Origin: Limosilactobacillus fermentum
GTDB lineage: Bacteria > Bacillota > Bacilli > Lactobacillales > Lactobacillaceae
NCBI RefSeq assembly: GCF_013394085.1
Contig: NZ_CP040910.1
Location: 1,660,767 to 1,724,766 of the forward strand
Direction of reading: 5' to 3'
DNA: 64,000 bases
A program made the translations under genes and the position numbers. Below the pieces are notes generated by a model. It ran no database searches and was not told the DNA's origin. It was given only the letters and a program-made list of their open reading frames with translations. Positions 760-63,072 of this stretch are shown one piece after another (position 1 is the stretch's first letter; each line of letters opens with the position of its first letter).

Positions 760-807
760 CTTTTTCCTCCAAAATTAGTATTAGGGTATATTTTAACACA
801 ATAAGGG

Positions 808-901
808 AAGTGCGAACCAGCCATTGGCAGGCCGTGGGTTAAGGATAGACCGGGGATTGATGCGGTACGCATCGTTCTCCGGTCAGACTTAGCCACGTTA
901 T
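808..901 (+). repeat. Structured intergenic repeat, shortened copy (one arm lost)
   Basis: It begins GAAGTGCG..CCATTGGCAGGCCGTGGG and ends ACTTAGCC..ACGTTAT, but the distal arm segment ACTAGGCCTGCGGTTGGGGAGC is missing. The inner stem is GACCGG paired with CCGGTC, and GATGCG with CGCATC, a different pair set from most copies. Confidence 0.8.
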
Positions 902-921
902 CTTTGGAATAGTCAAGATAC

Positions 922-4229: not shown

Positions 4230-4349
4230 ATAATGTGCTCCCCAACCACAGGCCTGGTGCCTAAGTACGGGCAAAGAACGCCGCTAGGGCGACAACCTTT
4301 TGCCCTAGCTTAGTCATACAGCCTGTTTAATAGGTTGGTACACACTTCC
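4230..4349 (-). repeat. Structured intergenic repeat, full copy
   Basis: Core stem GGGCAAA / TTTGCCC instead of the commoner CCACAG / CTGTGG. Ends ATAATGTGCTCC and GGTACACACTTCC. First of three copies in the region between the divergent adh and scrB genes. Confidence 0.85.
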
Positions 4350-4353
4350 AAAG

Positions 4354-4422
4354 ATAACGTGCTCCCCGACCACGGGCCTAGTGCCTAAGTACGGCCCGTT
4401 TGATAGATTGGTACACACTTCT
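4354..4422 (-). repeat. Structured repeat with central hairpin deleted
   Basis: Both ends are present (ATAACGTGCTCCCCGACC and GATTGGTACACACTTCT), but the central 50 bp are missing. Confidence 0.8.
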
Positions 4423-4426
4423 AAAG

Positions 4427-4544
4427 ATAACGTGCTCCCCAACCGCAGGCCTAGTGGCTAAGTCTGACCACAGAACACCGCGTTCCGCGCTAACCTGTGG
4501 TCTATCCTTAGCCCACGGCCTGCCAATGGTTGGTACACACTTCC
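4427..4544 (-). repeat. Structured intergenic repeat, full copy
   Basis: Common core type: GACCACAG pairs with CTGTGGTC and GCGGAACGCGG caps the hairpin. It lies immediately upstream of scrB. A further end fragment (GAAGTGCGAACCCACC) is at about 4173-4190 next to the adh start. Confidence 0.85.
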
Positions 4545-7606: not shown

Positions 7607-7722
7607 ATAACGTGCTCCCCAATCACAGGCCGTGGGCTAAGTCCAGCCACAGAACACCGCTGGCGCGCTAACCTGTGTCTAGGCCTTAGCCCACGGCCTG
7701 CCAAATGGTTGAGTCGCACTCC
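7607..7722 (-). repeat. Structured intergenic repeat, full copy
   Basis: Starts ATAACGTGCTCC, ends GAGTCGCACTCCC. It sits between the LysR stop codon and the shared terminator, in the sense direction of that transcript. A 23-bp sequence at 7548-7570 next to it recurs at 43389-43411 with one mismatch. Confidence 0.85.
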
Positions 7723-7759
7723 CTCTTCCAACGGAAGCCAACCCCTACAATATATTGAT

Positions 7760-13434: not shown

Positions 13435-13552
13435 ATAACGTGCTCCTAACCACGAGCCTAGTGTCTAAGTACGGGCAAAGAACGGTGCTGGCGCACCAGC
13501 CATTTGCCCTAACTTAGCCATACAGCTCGTCGAGAAGGTTAGTCGCACTTCC
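13435..13552 (-). repeat. Structured intergenic repeat, full copy
   Basis: Core stem GGGCAAA / TTTGCCC with GGTGCTGGCGCACC loop region. It lies in the 3' region of dacA, before the terminator. Confidence 0.85.
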
Positions 13553-13555
13553 CCC

Positions 13556-13674
13556 ATAACGTGCTCCCAATCACAGGCCTAGTGGTTAAGTCTGACCACA
13601 GAACACCGCGTTCCGCGCTAACCTGTGGTCTCATCCTTAGCCCACGGCCTGTTTGATAGATTGGGTCGCACTTC
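13556..13674 (-). repeat. Structured intergenic repeat, full copy, abutting dacA stop
   Basis: Core GACCACAG / CTGTGGTC. The GCACTTC end stops 1 nt from the dacA stop codon at 13676. Tandem with the copy at 13435. Confidence 0.88.
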
Positions 13675-13675
13675 T

Positions 13676-14929
13676 TTAAAACCAACCCTTATTCTTGTGA
13701 ACCGTCTTCGTCGCGTACACCGGCAAGTCCACGTCCGGGGCCCCCTTCACGTGTACCCGCAGGACGCCGACTTTTTCGCCCTTCTTCACGGGGGCGCGCA
13801 GCTTGTGGCCGCCGATCGTCCGCTTGTTTTTATCCAAGATTAACTCGACGTCGGCCTTCTTGAGGCTGGTGTTCTTGGCTAACCACAGGGTGGTGGCCTT
13901 CTTGAGGGTTAAGCCAACCGTCTTGGGGCCCTTCTTTTCGGCGTGGGCGACGGTGACTGATTGAACGCCCTTCTTGAAGTCGCTGAGCTTGTTAACGGTC
14001 AGGTACTGGTACTTGTCGAGGACCTGGCCGATCATTGCGTCGGTGACCTTAAACTGGTTGTTGTATTCCCCCGGCACCTTCAAAACCACTGTGATCAAGC
14101 GGCGGCCGTTAAAGGTCCCGGTCCCCACGAAGCAGTAGCCCGACGAATCGGTCATCCCGGTCTTTAAACCGTCCACCTCACCATGGGTCGATGCGGCGGC
14201 GTTTTGAGGCAGCATCGAGTTGATGTTGACCATTTCGTACTGCTGGCTGTCGGACACTTGGAAGTTGACGAACTTTTGCTTGGTGATTTCCAAGACGCTT
14301 GGGTACTTCTCCACTAGGTAACGGGCAATCTTGGCAACGTCTTTGGCCGACAGCTGGTTTTCCGCCTTCTTGGAGACGTTTTTCAACCGCATCTCGCCGA
14401 GGTCGCCATTAGCGAGACCAATCATGTTGTAGATCTTGGCGTCGGTCACCCCGGCCTCTTTAGCGACCGCCTGCATCTTCTGGTTGAAGGCGGCCGTGGA
14501 CCCCGCCGAGGCAAGGGCGAGGGCTTCCGCCGACCCGTCGGCCGAAACAATCATCATTGATTCCACCAAGGACTTAACGGTGTAGGACTCCCCCTCGTTT
14601 AACTGGACGTTGGAGAAGCGCCAGTCGTTGGCGACCTTAGCGACCTCCTTTGAGATCTTAATCTTTTGGTCCCACTTGAGCTTACCCTGTTCGATGTCTT
14701 GTTCGATCACCGCTAGGGTCCGGATTTTAATCACCGAAGCGATCGGGTAGCGCTTGGTGGCGTTCTTTTCGTAGAGCACCTGACCCGTTTCGGCGTCAAT
14801 CGTGATCGCCGCCCGGGCGTCGACGGTGCTGCTGGCGTTGGCGACAGCGCCGGCACTAGTGGCCAGCACGGTGGTAAAGGTGACGACCACCAACAAGAGG
14901 TGGAAGCAGACCCGGCGTAGTTTTCTCAT
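13676..14929 (-). CDS. dacA: D-alanyl-D-alanine carboxypeptidase (PBP5 type)
   Basis: Secreted penicillin-binding protein (417 aa) that trims the terminal D-Ala of peptidoglycan stem peptides. A signal peptide covers about residues 1-32 (basic start, LLLVVVTFTTVLATSAGA). The catalytic SxxK is SVIK at 65-68 and KTG is in LKTGMTDSSGY. The SxN motif reads SAD at 129-131, with Asp in place of Asn. A C-terminal beta domain (about residues 310-417) follows. The start at 14929 gives a proper signal peptide; the longer frame upstream does not. The SxN change could lower or alter activity. Confidence 0.88.
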   Translation of the reverse strand: MRKLRRVCFHLLLVVVTFTTVLATSAGAVANASSTVDARAAITIDAETGQVLYEKNATKRYPIASVIKIRTLAVIEQDIEQGKLKWDQKIKISKEVAKVANDWRFSNVQLNEGESYTVKSLVESMMIVSADGSAEALALASAGSTAAFNQKMQAVAKEAGVTDAKIYNMIGLANGDLGEMRLKNVSKKAENQLSAKDVAKIARYLVEKYPSVLEITKQKFVNFQVSDSQQYEMVNINSMLPQNAAASTHGEVDGLKTGMTDSSGYCFVGTGTFNGRRLITVVLKVPGEYNNQFKVTDAMIGQVLDKYQYLTVNKLSDFKKGVQSVTVAHAEKKGPKTVGLTLKKATTLWLAKNTSLKKADVELILDKNKRTIGGHKLRAPVKKGEKVGVLRVHVKGAPDVDLPVYATKTVHKNKGWF

Positions 14930-15797: not shown

Positions 15798-16622
15798 ATG
15801 CTCGAACACTACTTGATTGGGACCTACACCCACCACACCAGCCAGGGCATCTACTCGGTAACCCTAGATACCAGCGCGGGCCGGCTGTCACCCACCCGCC
15901 TGGAAATACCAATTCAAAAACCGATTTTTATGACCTTTGCTAACAACGGGATCTTGTACACGATCGAAAAGCTGGACCAAGACCACGCCGCCATTACCTC
16001 CTTTAAAGAGGAGGGGGGCTACTTTACCCGGCTCAGTTCGGTCAGTGCCCCGGGGACCACGACCGCTTACTTGGCCATCGATGAAGAACGCCAACTGCTC
16101 TTTTCGGCCAACTACCACATGTCGACCGTCACCACCCACCAGGATCAACCGGGATTTGGGGACCGCCACCTAACCTTCGGGCGTGACGGGCGCTTCATGT
16201 ACCTGGTCGGCGAATTGTCCTCCAAGCTGGAGGTCCTCGCCTACGATCAAGAGAACGGTGAACTATCGTCAATCCAAACCGTTTCGACCATCCCGGCCGA
16301 CTGGACCGCCCACAACGGGGCCGCCGCCATTCACGTTTGCCACAGTGGCCGCTTCGTCTACGTTTCTAACCGCGGTGAAAACACGATCGCCGTTTTTGAG
16401 GTCCAACCTGACGGCCGGGTCAAGCACATCCAGTCGGTGGCCACGGCCGGCGACTTCCCGCGCGACTTCTCCTTGAGCCACGACCAGAAGTTTATGATCG
16501 TTGCCAACCAAAACACCAACGATTTAACCCTGATGCGCCGCGATCCGGCTACCGGGCACCTAGCCACCAACCAAACCGGGGTACCATGCCCGGAACCGGT
16601 GCAGGTGCTGTATTGGAAGTGA
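15798..16622 (+). CDS. Lactonase-family beta-propeller protein, internally shortened
   Basis: Relative of the seven-bladed 6-phosphogluconolactonase/3-carboxymuconate cyclase family (PF10282 type). The start, LEHYLIGTYTHHTSQGIYSVTLD, and GRFVYVSNRGENTIAVFEV are typical. Members are usually about 340 aa; this one has 274. After SANYHMSTVTTHQDQPG (about residue 118) the sequence goes straight to FGDRHLTFGRDGRFMYLVGELSS, skipping 60-70 residues normally present, with the frame kept. One or two propeller blades are probably lost, so function is doubtful. AGGAGG at 15781 is the ribosome site. Confidence 0.78.
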   Translation: MLEHYLIGTYTHHTSQGIYSVTLDTSAGRLSPTRLEIPIQKPIFMTFANNGILYTIEKLDQDHAAITSFKEEGGYFTRLSSVSAPGTTTAYLAIDEERQLLFSANYHMSTVTTHQDQPGFGDRHLTFGRDGRFMYLVGELSSKLEVLAYDQENGELSSIQTVSTIPADWTAHNGAAAIHVCHSGRFVYVSNRGENTIAVFEVQPDGRVKHIQSVATAGDFPRDFSLSHDQKFMIVANQNTNDLTLMRRDPATGHLATNQTGVPCPEPVQVLYWK

Positions 16623-16623
16623 A

Positions 16624-16655
16624 GGAAGTGCGGACCAACCATTGGCAGGCCGGAT
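16624..16655 (+). repeat. End fragment of the structured repeat
   Basis: GGAAGTGCGGACCAACCATT then GGCAGGCCGG, starting right after the lactonase stop codon; the rest of the element is absent. Confidence 0.75.
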
Positions 16656-25581: not shown

Positions 25582-25622
25582 AAAAAAGACCCGGCACTTC
25601 ACAGTGCGCCGGGTCTTTTTTT
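25582..25622 (+). terminator. Terminator of the cytochrome b5-like gene
   Basis: AAAAAAGACCCGGCGC-type stem: GACCCGGCAC pairs with GTGCGCCGGGTC, then seven T. Confidence 0.88.
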
Positions 25623-25740
25623 GAGTGCGAACCAACCATTGGCAGGCCGTAGGCTAAGGATAGGGCACAGGTTAGCGCCCTCGGCGGTGTTCTGTGTCCA
25701 GACACTTAGCCACTAGGCCTGCGGTTGGGGAGCACGTTAT
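25623..25740 (+). repeat. Structured intergenic repeat, full copy
   Basis: Starts GAGTGCGAACCAACC, ends GGTTGGGGAGCACGTTAT. Core GGGCACAG / CTGTGTCC. It lies after a terminator and before a second terminator-like hairpin. Confidence 0.85.
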
Positions 25741-29491: not shown

Positions 29492-29944
29492 ATGTCGAAG
29501 GACAAAATCGAAGATGCCATTTATACACGGCGTTATATTTATAACTTTCACTACCATTTGATTTGGGTAACCAAGTATCGTAATCCAACTTTTACTAGTG
29601 AAGTGTTAGTGAATGAAATGAAAGAAATCCTTACAACGGTTGCGGCAGATAACGAAATCGTGATTGAGCACATGGAAGTAATGCCTGACCACGTCCATGT
29701 GTTGATTAGTTTTCCACCTAGTAAAGCACCAACTAGCGCTATCAAAGCCCTCAAAGGACGCAGTGCCTTCATTTTCCTCAAGCGACACCCGGAAATCCGC
29801 CAGTCGCAGTATTGGGGTGGCCACCTCTGGTCCCCTAGCTATTACATGAGTACTTTAGGGAATATGAGCAAGGAGGTCGTTGAGCAATATATCAATAATC
29901 AAAAGTACAATGAAATAAAAAAACGCCCTAAAGGACGTAAGTAG
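29492..29944 (+). CDS. tnpA: TnpA Y1 transposase of IS200/IS605 element
   Basis: Single-strand HUH transposase of 150 aa. The HUH pair is His67-Val-His69 in PDHVHVLIS and the nucleophile is Tyr133 in VVEQYINNQ. AAGGAG at 29476-29481 serves ATG 29492 (10-nt spacing). It would cut and rejoin the top strand at the element ends recognised by the subterminal hairpins. It appears intact. Confidence 0.94.
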   Translation: MSKDKIEDAIYTRRYIYNFHYHLIWVTKYRNPTFTSEVLVNEMKEILTTVAADNEIVIEHMEVMPDHVHVLISFPPSKAPTSAIKALKGRSAFIFLKRHPEIRQSQYWGGHLWSPSYYMSTLGNMSKEVVEQYINNQKYNEIKKRPKGRK

Positions 29945-32324: not shown

Positions 32325-32845
32325 ATGAACCCTACTTTCACGCTGGCCCCGGCCACGACCGCTGACGTCTTAGCCGTCCTAGAAATCATCAACCACGCCA
32401 AGGCCTTCTTGAAGGCGGCCGGCTCGACCCAGTGGCAATCCGGCTACCCCAACGCCGACACGATCACCACTGACATCGCTAACGAGGTCGGCTGGGTGCT
32501 AAAGGCCGATCACCAGGTGGTCGGGTACGCCGCCGTCATCGTTGGCGAAGACCCCAACTACCAAGAAATTGACGGGGCCTGGCAAAATACGACCGCCCCG
32601 TACGCCACTATCCACCGGATCGCCATTTCCAACCAGTACCAGGGCCAACACCTTGGCCAGCGCTTCTTTAAGCTAATCATTGACCACTTTGCAGGGGGGG
32701 CGTCCACAACTTCCGCGTCGACACCTTCAAGCTCAACCAGCCAATGCAACACGTGGCTAAGAGCGCCGGCTTTGAGTACCGGGGGATCATCAAGGTGGTC
32801 GACCCGGTTGACCCGGTGCGCTTGGCGTTTGAGTTGAATTTGTAG
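32325..32845 (+). pseudogene. GNAT acetyltransferase with frameshift in a G7 tract
   Basis: N-terminal 125 residues are a GNAT domain (PFTLAPATTADVLAVLEI-like start, WVLKADHQVVGYAAV, IHRIAISNQYQGQHLGQRFF as the acetyl-CoA loop). After DHFAGG, at seven G (32694-32700), the frame fails. Reading the other frame restores VHNFRVDTFKLNQPMQHVA and then AGFEYRGIIKV..FELNL to a stop at 32845. One extra G or two fewer would repair it. It could be a true mutation, a slippery phase-variable tract, or a sequencing error. Relatives are often called N-acetyltransferases of unknown target. Confidence 0.8.
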
Positions 32846-32866
32846 GAAGTGCGGACCAACCTCCTT
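32846..32866 (+). repeat. End fragment of structured repeat
   Basis: GAAGTGCGGACCAACCTCC directly after the GNAT stop codon. Confidence 0.7.
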
Positions 32867-32879
32867 TCAATCAATTACA

Positions 32880-32930
32880 GAAGTAGCTGAAGATCCACGT
32901 TTTTACCGATGCGATCTCCAGCTTTTTTCA
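32880..32930 (+). terminator. Terminator after GNAT
   Basis: AGCTGAAGATC pairs with GATCTCCAGCT, then TTTTTT. Confidence 0.75.
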
Positions 32931-32949
32931 ATTTTCGACTGTTATACAG

Positions 32950-33068
32950 ATAACGTGCTTCCCAACCGCAGGCCTAGTGGCTAAGTACGACCACAGAACA
33001 CTGCGTTCCGCGCTAACCTGTGGTCTTGTCCTTAGCCCACGGCCCGCTTAATGGTTGGTCCGCACTTC
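32950..33068 (-). repeat. Structured intergenic repeat, full copy
   Basis: Core GACCACAG / CTGTGGTC, preceded by ACAG. It lies upstream of the UmuC-like gene, so it is not in a 3'UTR. Confidence 0.85.
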
Positions 33069-33141
33069 TTGTAACCGAACACTTGTTCCGATAACTAAAA
33101 TCTGCTATGATAGGGGTGATTTACGAAGGGGGGTGGCCCGC

Positions 33142-34662: not shown

Positions 34663-35117
34663 ACAAACCAGCACTAGACCAACAAACGGCGGCCATCGAG
34701 GCCCGCCTCTTTAAAGACACCAGCGCCTACCAAGACATCATGGACCTGCCCCGGCCGGTCTCCAAGCACCACTGGCCCCTACCGGCGGCCGACCACGCTG
34801 GTCAGTTCGCTCCCTTTGCGGCCCTGACCGGCTACCACCAGCTGATCAACGAGGTCGCCGAGCGCTACAGCCACAAGAATTACCCCGATGAGCTGAGCAC
34901 CAAGCGCATTGAGCGTAAGTTACTGGCCATCAAGCCGCTCTTGCCCCTACGCCTCAAGGTCGAATATTTCAACGGCGACAGCGGCTACTACGAAACAATC
35001 GCGGGCACCGCTACCCAGCTCGACTTCAGGCGGGGCCGGCTGATGCTGACCAGAAAGCAGGAGTGGGAGCTAATTATCGCCAACCTGCGGAAGGTGACGG
35101 TGGTGACGAGAAAATAG
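34659..35117 (+). CDS. YolD-like protein
   Basis: Protein of 152 aa that overlaps the polymerase gene by ATGA. DLPRPVSKHHWPLPAADHAGQFAPF followed by ALTGYHQLINE matches the YolD-like family, which usually accompanies UmuC-like polymerases. Function is unknown; a regulatory or accessory role is assumed. The stop codon is immediately followed by three tandem structured repeats. Confidence 0.82.
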   Translation: MNKPALDQQTAAIEARLFKDTSAYQDIMDLPRPVSKHHWPLPAADHAGQFAPFAALTGYHQLINEVAERYSHKNYPDELSTKRIERKLLAIKPLLPLRLKVEYFNGDSGYYETIAGTATQLDFRRGRLMLTRKQEWELIIANLRKVTVVTRK

Positions 35118-35237
35118 GAAGTGCGACCCAACCATTGGGCAGGCCGTGGGCTAAGGACAAGACCACAGGTTAGCGCGGAACGCGGTGTTCTGTGGTCGGA
35201 CTTAGCCACTAGGCCTGCGGTTGGGAAGCACGTTATT
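35117..35237 (+). repeat. Structured repeat, tandem copy 1
   Basis: Core GACCACAG / CTGTGGTC. Its first base is the last base of the YolD stop codon. Nearly identical to copy 2. Confidence 0.9.
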
Positions 35238-35358
35238 GGAAGTGCGACCCAACCATTGGGCAGGCCGTGGGCTAAGGACAAGACCACAGGTTAGCGCGGA
35301 ACGCGGTGTTCTGTGGTCGGACTTAGCCACTAGGCCTGCGGTTGGGAAGCACGTTATT
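35238..35358 (+). repeat. Structured repeat, tandem copy 2
   Basis: Same sequence as copy 1, 121 bp later. Confidence 0.9.
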
Positions 35359-35475
35359 GGAAGTGCGACCCAACCATTGGCGGGCCGTGGGTAAGCTAGG
35401 GGGAAGGTTGGCGCCCCCGGCGGCGTTCTTTACCCGTACTTAGCCACTAGGCCTGCGGTTGGGGAGTACGTTATT
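35359..35475 (+). repeat. Structured repeat, tandem copy 3, divergent core
   Basis: Ends match copies 1-2, but the core is GGGGGAAGG..CGCC / GGCGTTCTTTACCC. A further end fragment follows at 35476-35495. Confidence 0.85.
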
Positions 35476-35517
35476 GGAAGTGCGACCCAACCTCACCAGT
35501 GAATGCACACTCATTAA

Positions 35518-35568
35518 GTAAAAAAAGCTGAAGATCACGTCCTTTTAGACGTCGATCTTCAGCTTTTT
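35518..35568 (+). terminator. Terminator after the tandem repeats
   Basis: AAAAAAGCTGAAGATCACG pairs with CGTCGATCTTCAGCTTTTT. An end fragment of the repeat (ACAGATGACGTGCTCCCC) is at 35583-35600, next to the MerR stop codon. Confidence 0.8.
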
Positions 35569-40590: not shown

Positions 40591-41802
40591 ATGCAAGAAA
40601 CGACTGATCACCGCCGTACCGTTCGCAACGCCGCGATTGGGGGCGCCTTTTTAATGGCCATGTCGGCCGTGGGGCCCGGCTTTTTAACCCAAACCGCTAC
40701 CTTTACCCAACGGGAAGGGGCTAACTTCGGTTTCGCCATCCTGATGTGTATCATCGTCGACGTCATCGTCCAGCTCAACATCTGGCGCGTCATCATCGTC
40801 TCCGGAAAGCGGGCCCAAATGATCGCTAACGACGTCTTCCCCGGCCTGGGCTACTTCTTATCCCTGCTCGTGGCGATCGGGGGGCTCTTTTTCAACATCG
40901 GAAACGTCGCCGGGGCCGGCCTGGGGCTCAACGTCTTGTTTGGGATCCCGACCATTTGGGGCGCCGTAATTTCGGCCGTCGCCGCCGTCTTGATCTTAGT
41001 GATGAAAAACGCCCTGAAGGCCGTCGACCGGACCGTCCAGGTGCTGGCGGTCATCGCCGTCTTGGTCCTCTTGTACACGCTGGCGATCATGAAGATCCCG
41101 TACGGGACGGCCGTTAGCCACACCTTTATGCCGACCAAGGTTAACTTCTACTCGATCCTGACGATTGTCGGCGGGACCGTCGGGGGGTACATCTCCTTTG
41201 CCGGGGGGCACCGGCTCTTAGAAGGGGGCGCCCAGGGGACCAAAGACCTCGGTGCCGTCAACCTCGGCGCCCTGTCCGGAATCGGGTTAGCCTCCGTGAT
41301 CCGGATCGTCCTCTTCTTGACCGGGTTAGCCGTGGTCTTAGGTGGTGGCACCCTAGACGCCGCCAACCCCGCCGCCACGATCTTTAAGGTCGCGGCCGGT
41401 ACCTTTGGCTACAAGTTCTTTGGCCTCTTACTCTTTGCGGCCGGGATGTCCTCGGTGATCGGTTCAACCTTTACCTCGATCTCGTTCTTGGACTACACCA
41501 GCCGTAAAAACGAAAACACCGACCACAACCGCCACTACAAGATGGCGATCACGATCGGCTTCATTGCCTTTGCGACGTTGATCTTCTGCTTTGTCGGCCA
41601 ACCGGCTACCGTCCTGGTGGTCGTTGGGGCGATCAACGGTTTCATCTTACCAATCGCCTTAGGGATCCTGCTGGTGGCCTCCCGCAAGATCAAGATCATG
41701 GGGGCAGGCTACCACCACCCCGCTTGGTTGACTTGGACCGGCTGGCTGGTCGTTATCTTCATGGCTTACGCCGGGATTAACACGGTATTAAACCTATTGT
41801 AA
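40591..41802 (+). CDS. NRAMP-related transporter, YcsG-like
   Basis: Membrane protein of 403 aa with about 11 hydrophobic helices, from the NRAMP superfamily. The first helix has MSAVGPGFLTQTATF where metal transporters carry DPGN, so the metal-binding Asp/Asn are not there. It resembles B. subtilis YcsG, which sits beside oxoprolinase genes. Uptake of 5-oxoproline or a related amide is therefore more likely than Mn transport (inference). AGGAGGAACTGCCG precedes the ATG. A structured repeat starts right at the stop codon. Confidence 0.82.
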   Translation: MQETTDHRRTVRNAAIGGAFLMAMSAVGPGFLTQTATFTQREGANFGFAILMCIIVDVIVQLNIWRVIIVSGKRAQMIANDVFPGLGYFLSLLVAIGGLFFNIGNVAGAGLGLNVLFGIPTIWGAVISAVAAVLILVMKNALKAVDRTVQVLAVIAVLVLLYTLAIMKIPYGTAVSHTFMPTKVNFYSILTIVGGTVGGYISFAGGHRLLEGGAQGTKDLGAVNLGALSGIGLASVIRIVLFLTGLAVVLGGGTLDAANPAATIFKVAAGTFGYKFFGLLLFAAGMSSVIGSTFTSISFLDYTSRKNENTDHNRHYKMAITIGFIAFATLIFCFVGQPATVLVVVGAINGFILPIALGILLVASRKIKIMGAGYHHPAWLTWTGWLVVIFMAYAGINTVLNLL

Positions 41803-41920
41803 GAAGTGCGACTCAACCGTAAAGCAGGCCGTGGGCTAAGGATAGGACACAGGTTAGCGCCCTCGGCGGTATTCTGTGGCCAGACTTAGCCACTAGGCCT
41901 GCGGTTGAGGAGCACGTTAT
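41803..41920 (+). repeat. Structured intergenic repeat, full copy, abutting stop
   Basis: Begins GAAGTGCGACTCAACC directly after the transporter stop codon; core GGACACAG / CTGTGGCC. The outer arm CTCAACC pairs with GGTTGAG, a paired change from CCCAACC / GGTTGGG. A 40-bp end fragment follows at 41922-41961. Confidence 0.88.
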
Positions 41921-41975
41921 TGGAAGTGCGACTCAACCGTAAAGCAGGCCGTGGGCTAAGTAAATACTAACCAAT

Positions 41976-43412: not shown

Positions 43413-43531
43413 ATAACGTGCTCCCCAACCGCAGACATAGTGGCTAAGTACGGTCAAATAACACCGCGTTCCGCGCTAAACTTTACCCTAGCTTAGCCCA
43501 ACGGCCTGCTTGATAGGTTGGGTCACACTCC
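43413..43531 (-). repeat. Structured intergenic repeat, full copy
   Basis: Core GGTCAAA / TTTACCC type. A 23-bp sequence, GACAAATATTTAGATTTGCG plus CAA, ends 2 nt before it (43389-43411) and is also near the copy at 7607. Confidence 0.82.
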
Positions 43532-43569
43532 TTTTTATTACGCAAATTTGCGGATTTGTCCTGTCCCCA

Positions 43570-43643: not shown

Positions 43644-43762
43644 ATAACGTGCTCCCAACCACAGGTCTAGTGGCTAAGTACGGACGGAGAACGATGCGTA
43701 CCGCATCGCCCCCCATCCTAGCTTAGCCATACGACCTGTCGAGTAGGTTGGTCCGCACTTCC
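43644..43762 (-). repeat. Structured intergenic repeat, full copy, abutting stop
   Basis: Core GGACGGAGAACGATGCG / CGCATCGCCCCCCATCC. The GCACTTCC end touches the stop codon of the reductase gene at 43763. Confidence 0.85.
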
Positions 43763-45094
43763 TTATTTCAGCAACGCCGCCACCTTATCCCCGGTCGTTG
43801 GGTAGGCCTCGATCATGGCCGCTTGCCACTGGGCCCGTGACAGCCCCAAGCCAATCGCGGGCAGGACGGCGTTGACATCATCGGCCGCCCCCGCCCCCAG
43901 GGCACTGATCCCGACCAGGCGGTCCTGGTTGTCGTAAACGCAGATGTAGTGCGGGTGCTCGTTTTGCCCGGCGTAAAGGCTACTACCGCCCCAATCAAAT
44001 TCTTCAACGTGCTGGCCAGCCGTTGCTTCATCGGGGTTGACCCCGGCCTGGGCTAGGGTCGGGTAAGAAAAGACGGCGCTGGCCACCACCGGTAGGTTGA
44101 AGGGCGCCGTTGGGTCATCGTGGCCAAAGCGGGTTAGCAGGTAGTCGGCTTGGCGCTCAGCAACCGGGGTTAGCTTGGGCCACGGCCGGTTAACCACGTC
44201 GCCCACCGCGTAGACGCCGGCAAAGCTGGTCTGGAGGTTTTCGTCGACCGCGATCCCGTGGCGGTCGTATTCGATCCCGGCCGCCGCCAGGTTCAGCGCT
44301 TCGACGTTGGGGATCCGTCCGGTGGCGTCGATGACATAGTCGGTCGTCAGGGCGTTGCCATTGTTAGTAATTAAAGTAAGGCGCCCATCTTGTGGCTTGA
44401 GTTCAGCGGGGCTGGTGTTGAAGGCAAAGCGGATCCCCCGCCCCGTCATTTCCTTGACTAGCCGCCGCACGTTTCCCTGGGCGAAGTTTTTCAGCACCCG
44501 GTCGCCGCGGATCAGTAGGGTCACCTGGCTACCAGCCGCCGCTAACAGGGTGGCCAACTCCATGGCCACGTAGCCGCCGCCGATGATCGTCGTGGTGGCC
44601 GGCAACTGGTCCAGGGACAAGACGTCGGTGGAATCGTGGGTTAGCTCGCTGCCCGGGAAATCCAGCCGGTGCGGACGGGCCCCGGTGGCGATCACAATCT
44701 GGTCGCCGGCGAATTTCTCGTCCCCCACGGCAACCGTGTGCGGCCCGGTAAACCGGCCGGCGCCCACCTTAACGGTCACCCCCGGCAACTGTTCGTAGAT
44801 CGCCTTGGTTTCGCTGGGCCAAGAGTCAAAGCGGGCCTTCTTGGTCTTCATCAAGGTAGCCCAATCGACGGTGGCCGCCTGATCAATCCCCTTACCCACT
44901 AGATTGGTGGTGGCCAAGGCGGCGCGAACGGCCCCCTCCAAAAAGATCTTGGGCTCGCACCCCACATTGGGGCAGGTCCCGCCAAACAAGTTGGGTTCGA
45001 CCGCCAGAATTCGGTGGTTATCGCCAGCCAAGCCCTTAGCTAGCTTGTAGCCGGCCGGACCAGTTCCGAGCAAAATGTAGTCATAAAGTTCCAT
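43763..45094 (-). CDS. FAD-dependent pyridine nucleotide-disulfide oxidoreductase
   Basis: Flavoprotein of 443 aa, glutathione-reductase/dihydrolipoamide-dehydrogenase fold. FAD motif LLGTGPAGYKLA at the start, redox-active Cys41 and Cys46 in GGTCPNVGC, NAD(P) motif IIGGGYVAMELA near residue 170, and GVYAVGDV near residue 300 are present. The usual C-terminal catalytic HPTxxE reads AYPTTGD, so the His is replaced by Tyr. It lies upstream of nothing but repeats and next to thioredoxin. The exact disulfide substrate is unknown; the altered C terminus argues against a normal glutathione reductase. Confidence 0.86.
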   Translation of the reverse strand: MELYDYILLGTGPAGYKLAKGLAGDNHRILAVEPNLFGGTCPNVGCEPKIFLEGAVRAALATTNLVGKGIDQAATVDWATLMKTKKARFDSWPSETKAIYEQLPGVTVKVGAGRFTGPHTVAVGDEKFAGDQIVIATGARPHRLDFPGSELTHDSTDVLSLDQLPATTTIIGGGYVAMELATLLAAAGSQVTLLIRGDRVLKNFAQGNVRRLVKEMTGRGIRFAFNTSPAELKPQDGRLTLITNNGNALTTDYVIDATGRIPNVEALNLAAAGIEYDRHGIAVDENLQTSFAGVYAVGDVVNRPWPKLTPVAERQADYLLTRFGHDDPTAPFNLPVVASAVFSYPTLAQAGVNPDEATAGQHVEEFDWGGSSLYAGQNEHPHYICVYDNQDRLVGISALGAGAADDVNAVLPAIGLGLSRAQWQAAMIEAYPTTGDKVAALLK

Positions 45095-45178: not shown

Positions 45179-45180
45179 TA

Positions 45181-45244
45181 CAACATGCTCCCAACTGCAG
45201 GTCTAGCTTAGCCATACGGCCTGCTTTTCGGTTGGTCGCACTCC
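45181..45244 (-). repeat. Structured repeat with central hairpin deleted
   Basis: CAACATGCTCCCAACTGCAG at one end and GGTTGGTCGCACTCC at the other, with GTCTAGCTTAGCC in between. It lies between the trxA stop codon and terminator. Confidence 0.78.
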
Positions 45245-45247
45245 TTT

Positions 45248-45562
45248 TTACAAGTACTTCTTCAGCGTGTCTTCAATCTGGTCCTTGGTGTGCAAACCGA
45301 TCAGCTTGTCGACAACTTGGCCGTCCTTTTTGATCAGCAGGGTCGGGATGCTCATCACGCCAAAGGCGGCCGCCGTTTGTGGGTTAGCGTCGACGTCGAG
45401 CTTGTTGACGGTCACTTGGCCGGCCATGTCATCGGCGACGGTTTCCACGATTGGGGATTGCATCCGGCACGGGCCACACCAGGTTGCCCAGAAGTCGGTT
45501 AAAACGACCCCGGAGTTCGTGTCTTGTTCAAAAGTTGCGTCAGTGGTTTCTGCTACTGCCAT
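45248..45562 (-). CDS. trxA: Thioredoxin
   Basis: Cytoplasmic thioredoxin of 104 aa. The active site is WCGPC (Trp28 to Cys32), the fold is standard, and cis-Pro is in MSIPTLLI. It reduces protein disulfides. ATG at 45562 follows GGAGGCCTTTAAC. It lies next to the FAD-dependent disulfide oxidoreductase, though each has its own 3' end. Confidence 0.96.
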   Translation of the reverse strand: MAVAETTDATFEQDTNSGVVLTDFWATWCGPCRMQSPIVETVADDMAGQVTVNKLDVDANPQTAAAFGVMSIPTLLIKKDGQVVDKLIGLHTKDQIEDTLKKYL

Positions 45563-46872: not shown

Positions 46873-46990
46873 ATAACGTGCTCACCAACCGCAGGCCTAG
46901 TGGCTAAGTCTGGCCACAGAACACCGCGTACCGCGCTAACCTGTGCCCTATCCTTACCCCACGGCCTGCCTATGGTTGGTCCGCACTTCC
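46873..46990 (-). repeat. Structured intergenic repeat, full copy
   Basis: Core GGCCACAG / CTGTGCCC with GCGTACCGC apex. It lies beyond the terminator of the aminotransferase unit, in the same orientation as its transcript. Confidence 0.85.
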
Positions 46991-47067: not shown

Positions 47068-47188
47068 ATAACGTGGAAAATAACCGCAGGTCTAGTGTTC
47101 TAAGTACGGGCGAAAACGGTGCGTTTCGCACCAACCGTTCGCCCTAGCTTAGTCATACGACCTGCTTTGGAGGTTATTTCCCACTCCC
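47068..47188 (-). repeat. Structured repeat with alternative outer stem
   Basis: Outer arms GTGGAAAATAACC / GGTTATTTCCCAC replace the usual GCTCCCCAACC / GGTTGG. The core GGGCGAA..GGTGCG / CGCACC..TTCGCCC is also different but perfectly paired. It ends 3 nt from the aminotransferase stop codon. Confidence 0.85.
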
Positions 47189-51814: not shown

Positions 51815-52345
51815 ATAGTAGAGAAACTTGATCTAAACACGCCAGAATACGCCCAGCTGGAGGAACGGATCCAGCAAAATCAGCTGCTGGTCCAAAAACT
51901 TAACACCCAGGTCCACGATGCCGCCGCGGTGCGCGAACTGGTCAGCCAGATCACCGGGCGCCCGGTTGACGAGAGCACCGAAATCCGCTTGCCCTTTTAC
52001 ACCGACTGCGGGGTCCGGATTCACCTGGGCAAACGGGTCTTCATTAACTCAAACTGCATGTTCACCGACCTGGGGACAATTACCCTAGAAGACGACGCCC
52101 TAATCGGACCTAACGTGACCCTGGCGACGGTCAACCACCGGCGCAACCCGGCTGAGCTCCGTCACTTAGACCTCGCCCCGATCGTGATCAAGCGGCGGGC
52201 CTGGGTCGGTGCTAACGCCACCATTACCCCCGGGGTCACGATTGGCGAAAACGCAATTGTGGCGGCCGGGGCGGTGGTCACTAAGGACGTGGCCGCCAAC
52301 ACGATCGTCGGGGGAATTCCGGCAAGGGTGATTGGGAGAATTTGA
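51815..52345 (+). CDS. Hexapeptide-repeat acetyltransferase (Maa/LacA type) with ATA start
   Basis: Left-handed beta-helix O-acetyltransferase of about 176 aa. Hexapeptide repeats start at VRIHLGKRVFINSNCMFTDL and GPNVTLATVNH (catalytic His) and end GAVVTKDVAANTIVGGIPA. GGAGG at 51802-51806 is followed after 8 nt by ATA at 51815. No ATG/GTG/TTG is in frame between the -10 (51781) and about 52058. The longer frame to 51596 would start upstream of the promoter. So ATA is probably the start, a rare codon, or it is a mutated ATG. Substrate is likely a sugar or similar. Confidence 0.75.
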   Translation: MVEKLDLNTPEYAQLEERIQQNQLLVQKLNTQVHDAAAVRELVSQITGRPVDESTEIRLPFYTDCGVRIHLGKRVFINSNCMFTDLGTITLEDDALIGPNVTLATVNHRRNPAELRHLDLAPIVIKRRAWVGANATITPGVTIGENAIVAAGAVVTKDVAANTIVGGIPARVIGRI

Positions 52346-52461
52346 GTGCGACCCAACCTCCTCGACGGGCCGTTGGGCTAAGGATAGGACACAGGTTAGC
52401 GCGCCAGCGGTGTTCTGTGGCCAGACTTAGCCACTAGGCCCGTGGTTGGGGAGCACGTTAT
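52344..52461 (+). repeat. Structured intergenic repeat, full copy, overlapping stop
   Basis: GAGTGCGACCCAACC begins inside the TGA of the acetyltransferase. Core GGACACAG / CTGTGGCC, GGGCC pairs with GGCCC. An end fragment follows at 52463-52499. Confidence 0.88.
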
Positions 52462-52510
52462 CGGAAGTGCGGACCAACCATTGGCAGGCCGTGGGCTACT
52501 CATCCGAAAA

Positions 52511-62191: not shown

Positions 62192-62761
62192 GTGAAGCGC
62201 GAAGAACTCAAGGAACAAAACAGAACCCAGATCATCGAAGCGGCCAAGCGGCTCTTTTTGGCCCAGGGGATCCAAAAAACCAGCGTCCGCCAGATCAGCC
62301 AGGAGTCGGGAATCTCTTACGTCACCATGTATAAGTACTTTGCCGACAAGGAGGCCCTGGTCCAAGAAGTTTTAACCGGCCTGATCGACACGTCCTTTGC
62401 AGACGCCCAGGCGACGATCAAAAACTCCAGTCAGCCCTTTTTGCAACGTCTGCAGGCGATTCCCAACACCTCCTCGCTCGGCGCCATCACCAGTCAGGCT
62501 TCCTACGAAGAGCTTTCTAAGACCATCGAGACTACCCCGAAATTGCGGGCCCACGTCCGGGCCAAGCTGGATGGGCTGTTTACCACCTTCATTCAGATTG
62601 GGCGCCGTGATGGTTTCATCACCACCCCGGCCAGCGATGAAGCGATCATCACCATCCTAACCTCGCTAGTTTATTATGGCGATGCCAACGGCCACGAACC
62701 CGACCCTAAGCAAGCCGAAGGGATCGTTAACGTCCTTTTGTATGGGCTGACGGGGAAGTAA
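62192..62761 (+). CDS. TetR-family regulator of the ABC pump
   Basis: Regulator of 189 aa. RTQIIEAAKRLFLAQGIQKTSVRQISQESG then ISYVTMYKYFADKEALVQE is a clear TetR HTH. GTG at 62192 follows GGGGGTGAACTC; the frame extends further up to 62063 without a ribosome site. It is divergent from the MacB-like pump. Repeats follow its stop codon, then a terminator. Confidence 0.86.
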   Translation: MKREELKEQNRTQIIEAAKRLFLAQGIQKTSVRQISQESGISYVTMYKYFADKEALVQEVLTGLIDTSFADAQATIKNSSQPFLQRLQAIPNTSSLGAITSQASYEELSKTIETTPKLRAHVRAKLDGLFTTFIQIGRRDGFITTPASDEAIITILTSLVYYGDANGHEPDPKQAEGIVNVLLYGLTGK

Positions 62762-62766
62762 GCAGT

Positions 62767-62882
62767 GAGTGCGACCCAACCAACTGGCAGGCCGTGGGCT
62801 AAGGCCTAGACATAGGTTAGCGCGTCAGCGGTGTTCTATGGCTGGACTTAGCCACTAGGTCTGCGGTTGGGGAGCACGTTAT
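62767..62882 (+). repeat. Structured intergenic repeat, full copy
   Basis: Follows the TetR stop codon by 5 nt. Core ACATAG / CTATGG; arms GCAGGCC / GGTCTGC. Confidence 0.85.
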
Positions 62883-62886
62883 CAGT

Positions 62887-63003
62887 GAGTGCGGACCAGC
62901 CGTAAAGCAGGCCGTGGGCTAAGGATAGGCCACAGGTTAGCGCGGCACGCGGTGTTCTGTGGCCAGGCTTAGCCACTAGGCCTGCGGCTGGGGAGCACGT
63001 TAT
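62887..63003 (+). repeat. Structured intergenic repeat, full copy
   Basis: Second tandem copy, separated by 4 nt. Core GGCCACAG / CTGTGGCC; outer arm CCAGCC / GGCTGG, a paired change from CCAACC / GGTTGG. Confidence 0.87.
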
Positions 63004-63007
63004 CAGT

Positions 63008-63072
63008 GAGTGGGAAATGACCTTCTCGACAGACCGTATGGCTAAGCTAGGACGAAGGTTAGTGCGCGATCT
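63008..63072 (+). repeat. Structured repeat, 5' part only, alternative outer arm
   Basis: GAGTGGGAAATGACC starts it; this resembles the alternative outer stem of the copy at 47068. It breaks off near the terminator. Confidence 0.7.

Follow-up and report, generated by a model that had tools for sequence, protein, structure and literature searches.

A probably new, once mobile family of hairpin repeats kept in the mRNA 3'UTRs of Limosilactobacillus fermentum

Limosilactobacillus fermentum carries a dispersed repeat that probably represents a new hairpin family, formerly mobile and retained in the 3' untranslated regions (3'UTRs) of its mRNAs. Tentatively, we favour the reading that the repeats of about 120 nt are a non-autonomous family whose product is one long RNA hairpin in the mRNA tail, acting in cis on its own mRNA; among the readings considered, such a cis action seems the most likely by analogy with the REPs of Escherichia coli. 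At the least, the repeat is a structured family absent from Rfam 15, and in the open-access literature we found no publication on it. If the hairpins act, a single mobile family has given a common 3'-end structure to at least seventy genes of a bacterium from food and the gut. If true, this would stand beside the stop-proximal REPs, an established control point in E. coli, as an independent case, and a larger one, in a Gram-positive organism. RNA decay in Gram-positive bacteria relies partly on other enzymes. A relative in which no copy was found (genome G016) offers a ready-made comparison, and strain differences in unit number could serve typing.

On this reading, copies came to sit between stop codon and terminator, and units are added and lost in place. 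The terminating ribosome and the hairpin may then compete for one stretch of mRNA: the first base of the stem lies at a median of 5 nt past the stop, so that, given the size of a ribosome footprint, a terminating ribosome should meet the hairpin. In addition, the hairpin might block 3'-to-5' exonucleases. The outcome would be an effect on translation termination and on mRNA decay of the upstream gene, as for E. coli REPs located at most 15 nt from a stop.

Repeat units in the window

The window, i.e. the whole stretch of 64,000 nucleotides that was analysed, is part of a genome of 1.888 Mb in a single contig. The 5' end of the repeat, GAAGTGCG, occurs 17 times in it versus 2.1 expected. The array at 35117 on the plus strand holds three full hairpin units, the first (35117..35236) beginning on the G of a TAG stop (35115-35117), the second (35238..35357) identical to it in all letters and the third (35359..35474) with an upper stem of another subtype than the two before. 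The 5' remnant of a further unit, GGAAGTGCGACCCAACC (35476..35493), is the last piece of the array, and a terminator hairpin (35522..35568, plus strand; -28.3 kcal/mol, z -7.9 by folding) lies behind it.

Further copies on the plus strand are a truncated 5' piece (16624..16653) flush to a TGA which ends at 16622, another truncated 5' piece (32845..32863) at the end of a GNAT gene, a full copy (41802..41920) flush to a TAA which ends at 41802 and followed by the 5' remnant of a second unit (41922..41962), a full copy (52342..52461) with a TGA stop (52343-52345) inside, likewise followed by a 5' remnant of a second unit (52463..52498), and a full copy (62765..62882) 3 nt past a TAA which ends at 62761, with a second unit (62885..63003) and a truncated third one (63006..63068). 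On the minus strand a full copy (13556..13675) is flush to a stop at 13676 and continues into a second unit (13435..13552), a full copy (43644..43762) is flush to a stop at 43763, an internally deleted copy (45180..45245) is flush to a stop at 45248, and a full copy of the GTGGGAAATAACC subtype (47068..47188) lies 3 nt past its stop (47192).

An earlier note on this DNA, made from the sequence, had claimed that at ten sites the repeat starts within a few nucleotides of a stop codon. With our own gene calls each of the ten lies beside a stop of the same strand, between -4 and +7 nt from it: 16624 (+1), 32846 (+7), 35117 (-1), 41803 (-1), 52344 (-4) and 62767 (+3) on the plus strand, and 13674 (0), 43762 (0), 45244 (+2) and 47188 (+3) on the minus strand. 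Three of these copies are shortened (16624, 32846 and 45244). The accompanying claim of a terminator behind nearly all of them held at every site, since a terminator-like hairpin follows all ten, eight found by the scanner and two (35117 and 32846) by folding.

Copies at 808, 4230-4544 and 32950 had been named as exceptions. Their placement was borne out: the first is a decayed copy on the plus strand (806..921), antisense to its neighbours on both sides, the second comprises two full copies not flush to a stop (4230..4349 and 4427..4544) around a shortened one (4354..4422), all on the minus strand, and the third is a full antisense copy (32950..33069, minus strand) past the terminator of the GNAT gene. 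Though listed as an exception, the 808 copy has a sense terminator behind it. The list proved incomplete, as full copies at 7607..7723 (minus strand, 36 nt past a stop) and 25621..25740 (plus strand, 45 nt past a stop) are not flush either. Two more full copies on the minus strand absent from that list, 43413..43532 and 46873..46990, are second copies farther downstream of the copies at 43762 and 47188, respectively.

The GNAT acetyltransferase gene (32325-32846) differs in the frame of its 3' end from strain DR9, in which the stop of the intact gene abuts the repeat. A short second repeat of the form TTGCGCAAATCTAAATATTTGTCCTGTC adjoins, by eye, several copies (the 7607 and 43413 regions of the window and loci L015, L032, L055, L060 and L064), many of them non-flush.

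A long hairpin with compensatory changes

Units are mostly 116-122 nt long, with GGAAGTG or GTGAGTG at the 5' end and GTTAT at the 3' end. Folding of four units yielded a single long hairpin each time, of 118-122 nt and with -62.9 to -72.8 kcal/mol (z -6.6 to -9.0). The folds of seven copies from relatives look more regular: above a foot of about 13 bp comes a bulge of 6 nt in the 5' arm, then a helix of 7 bp, and beyond it internal loops and more stems. At gathering score the window has no match in Rfam 15; two weak matches (E up to 1) in loci L001-L003 and L006 lie away from the copies, and there is none in the loci of five relatives.

Among 147 distinct L. fermentum copies, in an alignment that leans towards the structure as it was fitted to the model, 97.5% of the pair cells (not independent of each other, the copies being related) do pair and double changes occur at 21 of 33 pairs, with 0 of 500 shuffles as high; pairing falls to 34-47% when the partner columns are slid. 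In 44 distinct copies from four other species, likewise fitted and related, 98.3% of the cells are paired and double changes occur at 19 of the 33 pairs, again with 0 of 500 shuffles reaching that level. One-sided departures from pairing in L. fermentum are G-U in 208 cases versus A-C in 66 (155:66 once the column richest in G-U is removed), with 138:36 in arrays flush to a stop and 46:20 in arrays that face the start of a gene, and the four relatives show 45 G-U versus 6 A-C. For unpaired columns, C-to-T amounts to 15.6% and G-to-A to 11.4%.

The compensatory changes and the preference of G-U over A-C favour a folded sense-strand RNA. Since the G-U excess is also present in start-facing arrays, the RNA signal is not limited to 3'UTRs. 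A strand-specific hairpin of single-stranded DNA could be the source of a similar excess.

Placement at stop codons

A covariance model built from 30 copies revealed at least 150 copies in the L. fermentum genome, the best 150 of 924 candidates being scored. These copies are unevenly distributed, with 0 to 19 per 100 kb, and densest at about 1.6-1.89 Mb and 0.1-0.3 Mb. For placement we analysed 159 copies in 123 arrays out of 296 cmsearch matches (150 copies of alignment A3 and 9 added by hand). The matches set aside are shadows on the opposite strand, roughly twelve shortened copies in sense and a single full copy (L051:2721-2838, 78 bits); this last one sits in the already counted array 1404359, giving it 2 units and leaving the array totals unaffected. 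A second model, R2, found further copies at 1466478 and 1122843. Genes were called by our own codon-usage caller, not a standard one, and an upstream gene was called for 122 of the 123 arrays.

Of the 123 arrays, 73 have their 5' end at -16 to +10 nt from a same-strand stop (termed flush here), and 66 of these 73 fall within -5 to +5. The earlier note had proposed a count of distance and orientation to stops versus shuffled positions: random placement in the same intergenic regions, in runs that skip arrays without a called neighbour on one side, yields 7.5 flush arrays (sd 2.6, maximum 19 in 2000 runs) and random orientation at fixed places 37.1 (sd 4.3, maximum 54). The 3' end is at a stop in 1 of 123 arrays, and neither end is at a start in any of them. 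Scanning for the 5' motif gave 91 positive stops out of 478, versus 1, 2, 3 and 2 in four controls; 69 of the 91 have a full copy and 22 have none, at least two of the latter (genes 120023 and 217688) looking like chance.

Sense orientation, also claimed before, holds jointly with position at the stop. By itself it does not hold, as in tandem intergenic regions 31 arrays are sense and 27 antisense (p=0.69). The placement bias is thus one of position and orientation jointly at the stop, not of orientation alone. An opposite-strand gene start lies upstream of 31 of the 123 arrays, which means that a 3'UTR is not evident for every copy. By eye, several of these start-facing arrays repeat the layout seen at 32846-33069, where the nearby stop of the other strand has its own truncated sense piece and the full copy lies past the terminator.

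The main rival to our reading, and a quite real possibility, is a tolerated parasite: the hairpin would serve its own spread, as folded single-stranded DNA or as RNA recognised by some enzyme, and the gap between stop and terminator would be the least harmful place for insertion. The pneumococcal BOX, RUP and SPRITE repeats, also enriched between convergent genes, are read in this way by their own authors in the available text of PMC3049150. However, the placement is tighter than tolerance alone predicts. Genes without the motif have a median gap of 18.5 nt from stop to terminator stem (142 of 387 genes with a scanner terminator), and free space alone therefore fails to explain a position within -5 to +5 nt in 66 of 73 flush arrays.

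The earlier note had further suggested an action in the 3'UTR, for example on RNA stability or readthrough. Action at the RNA level gains support from the stop-flush placement, the terminator that follows, the compensatory pairs and the excess of G-U over A-C; readthrough does not, and we regard a stop-codon readthrough signal as scarcely credible. A stem a few nucleotides past the stop does resemble the layout of known readthrough signals, in which a stem lies a few nucleotides after the stop. Yet the frame of the element relative to the stop is spread 27/16/30 over the three frames (p=0.11), reading past the stop would reach another in-frame stop at a median of 13 codons as compared to 12 and 12 in the other frames, and among the stops that precede the element TGA is somewhat underrepresented (2 of 63, p=0.045, a weak test). 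With no preferred frame, no long in-frame extension and TGA not favoured before the element, readthrough was dropped. Where the stop is inside the element, which is the case in ten arrays, it is TGA in five.

Sixty of 122 arrays lie between convergent stops, where supercoils collect, and a DNA-level role has been proposed for BIMEs. A site for gyrase, a nucleoid protein or a cruciform at the ends of transcription units would suit this location. It is nevertheless a very improbable account, as the G-U over A-C asymmetry and the stop-tied orientation are strand-specific and a double-stranded site needs neither.

Terminators behind the hairpins

A sense terminator follows within 150 nt in 59 of 73 flush arrays, in 13 of 18 arrays farther from a stop and in 6 of 31 start-facing arrays; as controls on the flush arrays, the 5' side gave 11 of 73 and shuffled sequence 2 of 73. 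Among the start-facing arrays, 18 of 31 have an antisense terminator. The repeat resembles Rho-independent terminators in being a hairpin past the stop, one subtype having a terminator behind it, but the hairpin itself is without a T tract.

A mobile unit consisting of hairpin and terminator, the terminator being what matters, would account for the subtype GTGGGAAATAACC, in which similarity between dispersed copies continues via a CTGTCTAACATTCG spacer towards a GGCTGG terminator, and for pairwise alignments of which some run about 66 nt downstream. We consider such a portable terminator improbable, because the commonest downstream limit of similarity is 0-9 nt past the hairpin (155 of 620 similar pairs), and by our own pattern the CTGTSTAA spacer is found in 40 and the conserved terminator stem in 12 of 123 arrays.

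Comparison with known systems

Integron attC sites are imperfect hairpins of about 120 nt right behind a stop, with a GTTRRRY core, and go together with a tyrosine integrase. The repeat is like them in size, in its imperfect hairpin directly past the stop and in its sense orientation; it differs in its 3' end GTTATCT, which by eye misfits the core, and in that copies are found behind chromosomal genes on both strands.

Like REPs and BIMEs, the repeat is a dispersed intergenic palindrome, and in both cases a large proportion lies no more than 15 nt from the stop upstream (73 of 123 arrays for this repeat). In the available part of PMC12306157, E. coli REPs that lie no more than 15 nt from a stop are reported to make ribosomes stall and to bring about cleavage of the mRNA; one study proposed that 260 of 496 E. 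coli REPs act near stops, and a later count by RepRanger places 446 of 4,072 putative REPs at such a distance. REPs are defined in PMC3733652 as palindromes of 20-40 bp with a GTAG (or CGTC) tetranucleotide at one end. An associated REP tyrosine transposase (RAYT) is a further mark of the REP/BIME class. At about 120 nt the repeat is far outside the 20-40 nt of a REP, it has no GTAG or CGTC end, and it is present in genomes in which, at the domain level and in draft sequence, no Y1 transposase match was found; moreover, it has a long multi-helix fold with covariation across species. By analogy, the repeat may work like stop-proximal REPs, yet by size, end tag and transposase link it is no REP.

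BOX, RUP and SPRITE are, as far as the available text of PMC3049150 goes, small interspersed structured repeats of a low-GC Gram-positive bacterium, enriched between convergent genes and slow in present-day movement, the internal copy number of BOX being variable. A BOX element is a boxA-boxB(n)-boxC composite with terminal inverted repeats. Units of the repeat described here are whole hairpins head to tail, and it is set apart from these families by description rather than by sequence. A stop-flush placement in one orientation is not mentioned for them in that text (PMC3049150). Another paper with families of its own (PMC2267715) includes Lactobacillus johnsonii. Taken by its features, the repeat belongs to a known kind, the structured dispersed repeats, as a new family marked by an unusually strict placement and an RNA-level signal.

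Insertion history and strain differences

Of 47 genomes belonging to the genus, G016 shows the highest identity to one 8.5-kb query, at 76-79% in the two parts that matched. The genome search gave no match to the repeat in G016, nor did 293 kb fetched from it, and 20 of 20 paired orthologous intergenic regions are empty there. Since no copy was found in it, the repeat has no essential role. Fifteen of the 20 comparisons were displayed, eight of them at flush sites: at five of these eight, homology reaches the stop codon and breaks at the start of the element, while at three it ends before the stop. At site 880009 the terminator past the element is by eye still recognisable in G016.

Dispersed copies with unrelated flanks share up to 97.5% identity, which suits a tolerated parasite. 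Among 620 similar pairs, similarity most often sets in at -5 to +4 nt from the start of the element (310 pairs) and most often ends 0-9 nt beyond the end of it.

We do not favour a MITE with terminal inverted repeats. The ends of the hairpin pair, and neither a target duplication nor a parent element was seen. The inverted 5'-end pattern occurs near 27 of 123 arrays, in some plainly by chance; by eye, most of the real inverted pieces are of another subtype than the array and abut the stop of the opposite gene, and we read them as remnants of separate copies.

Strain DR9 is 99.3% identical to the window over 63% of a 14-kb query. Comparison with it was possible for 27 arrays, none of which is wholly absent. 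The number of units differs at array 1695884, which is the 35117 array of the window (3 here, 2 in DR9), at 1404359 (2 here, 3 in DR9) and at 1752801 (1 here, 2 in DR9). Array 1647577 shows a more complex unit difference, DR9 has only a 5' remnant at arrays 1514865 and 1531993, and at array 1474265 one flank carries an IS in DR9. Gain and loss of units is ongoing, and remnants can arise by deletion. Median identity is 75% within and 73% between arrays, reaching at least 99% in 3 of 48 within-array pairs; most array neighbours are thus not recent twins.

With flanks 1.24% different between the two strains and the misaligned array 1665194 excluded, seven single changes keep a pair and eight make or break one. 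Four double changes keep pairs, all in one copy, and may represent one exchange. Pair-keeping between the two strains is not clearly favoured. The 760-kb DR9 record CP033372.1, labelled a plasmid (L109, L110), contains genes for ribosomal proteins and for a beta subunit of RNA polymerase, along with further chromosomal genes, and looks like part of the DR9 chromosome.

Spread in the genus, the family and plasmids

Model R1 has matches in 29 of 50 genomes of the genus; model R2 has matches in 24 of 37, with at least 98 matches in the genome under study and between 1 and 40 in each of the other 23. In a sample of 301 genomes and 40 genera of the family, under strict filters and with 12 candidates per genome scored, R1 matched 13 genomes from 5 genera and R2 15 genomes from 4 genera. 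Within one genus, matches per genome thus range from 0 to at least 150, G016 being among the genomes where none was found, as would be expected of a tolerated parasite. On the other hand, no enzyme was found that tracks the repeat: G022, G027, G029 and G030 have 11-18 repeat matches and, in their draft genomes at the domain level, no Y1 transposase (Y1_Tnp) match. Y1_Tnp matches are present in G003 and G016, both without a repeat match, and L. fermentum itself has 15, including an IS200/IS605-type transposase gene at 29537-29902 of the window, with flanks by eye unlike the repeat. A Y1 transposase (IS200/IS605, RAYT-like) as the driver was discarded, since it does not track copy number.

Four related species were sampled with 45 of 92 matches, the better-scoring ones, from four of six genomes; 27 of their 43 arrays are flush, with a further 5 at 11-20 nt. 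A stronger version of our reading holds that the hairpin is a genus-wide, termination-coupled 3'UTR RNA, in which a fixed architecture, its internal loops conserved, would need a distance of a few nucleotides from the stop in order to be read by the terminating ribosome or by a dedicated RNA-binding factor. It would have been dispersed in the form of a portable UTR, to which one subtype adds a terminator of its own, and would have rewired the decay of the mRNAs of at least seventy L. fermentum genes; we hold this stronger version to be rather unlikely. Sites shared between L. fermentum and G041, G017, G022 or G033 involve few shared genes, by eye at about chance level. G022 and G041 share, by eye, at least three of five G022 sites compared.

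Matches to the repeat were found in 36 plasmid records. In Lactiplantibacillus garii and an uncultured Lactobacillaceae genome a copy with the same repeat letters in both lies directly behind a gene which we take to encode an asparagine synthase. A similar copy is found behind asnB on a mobilizable plasmid of Latilactobacillus sakei (loci L107, L009 and L010 for the three together), so that apparently an asparagine synthase gene has been travelling with its 3' element. A variant of 143 nt occurs in loci L083 and L084 (G041), with matches in G027 and G028, and the one that was folded has an extra side hairpin.
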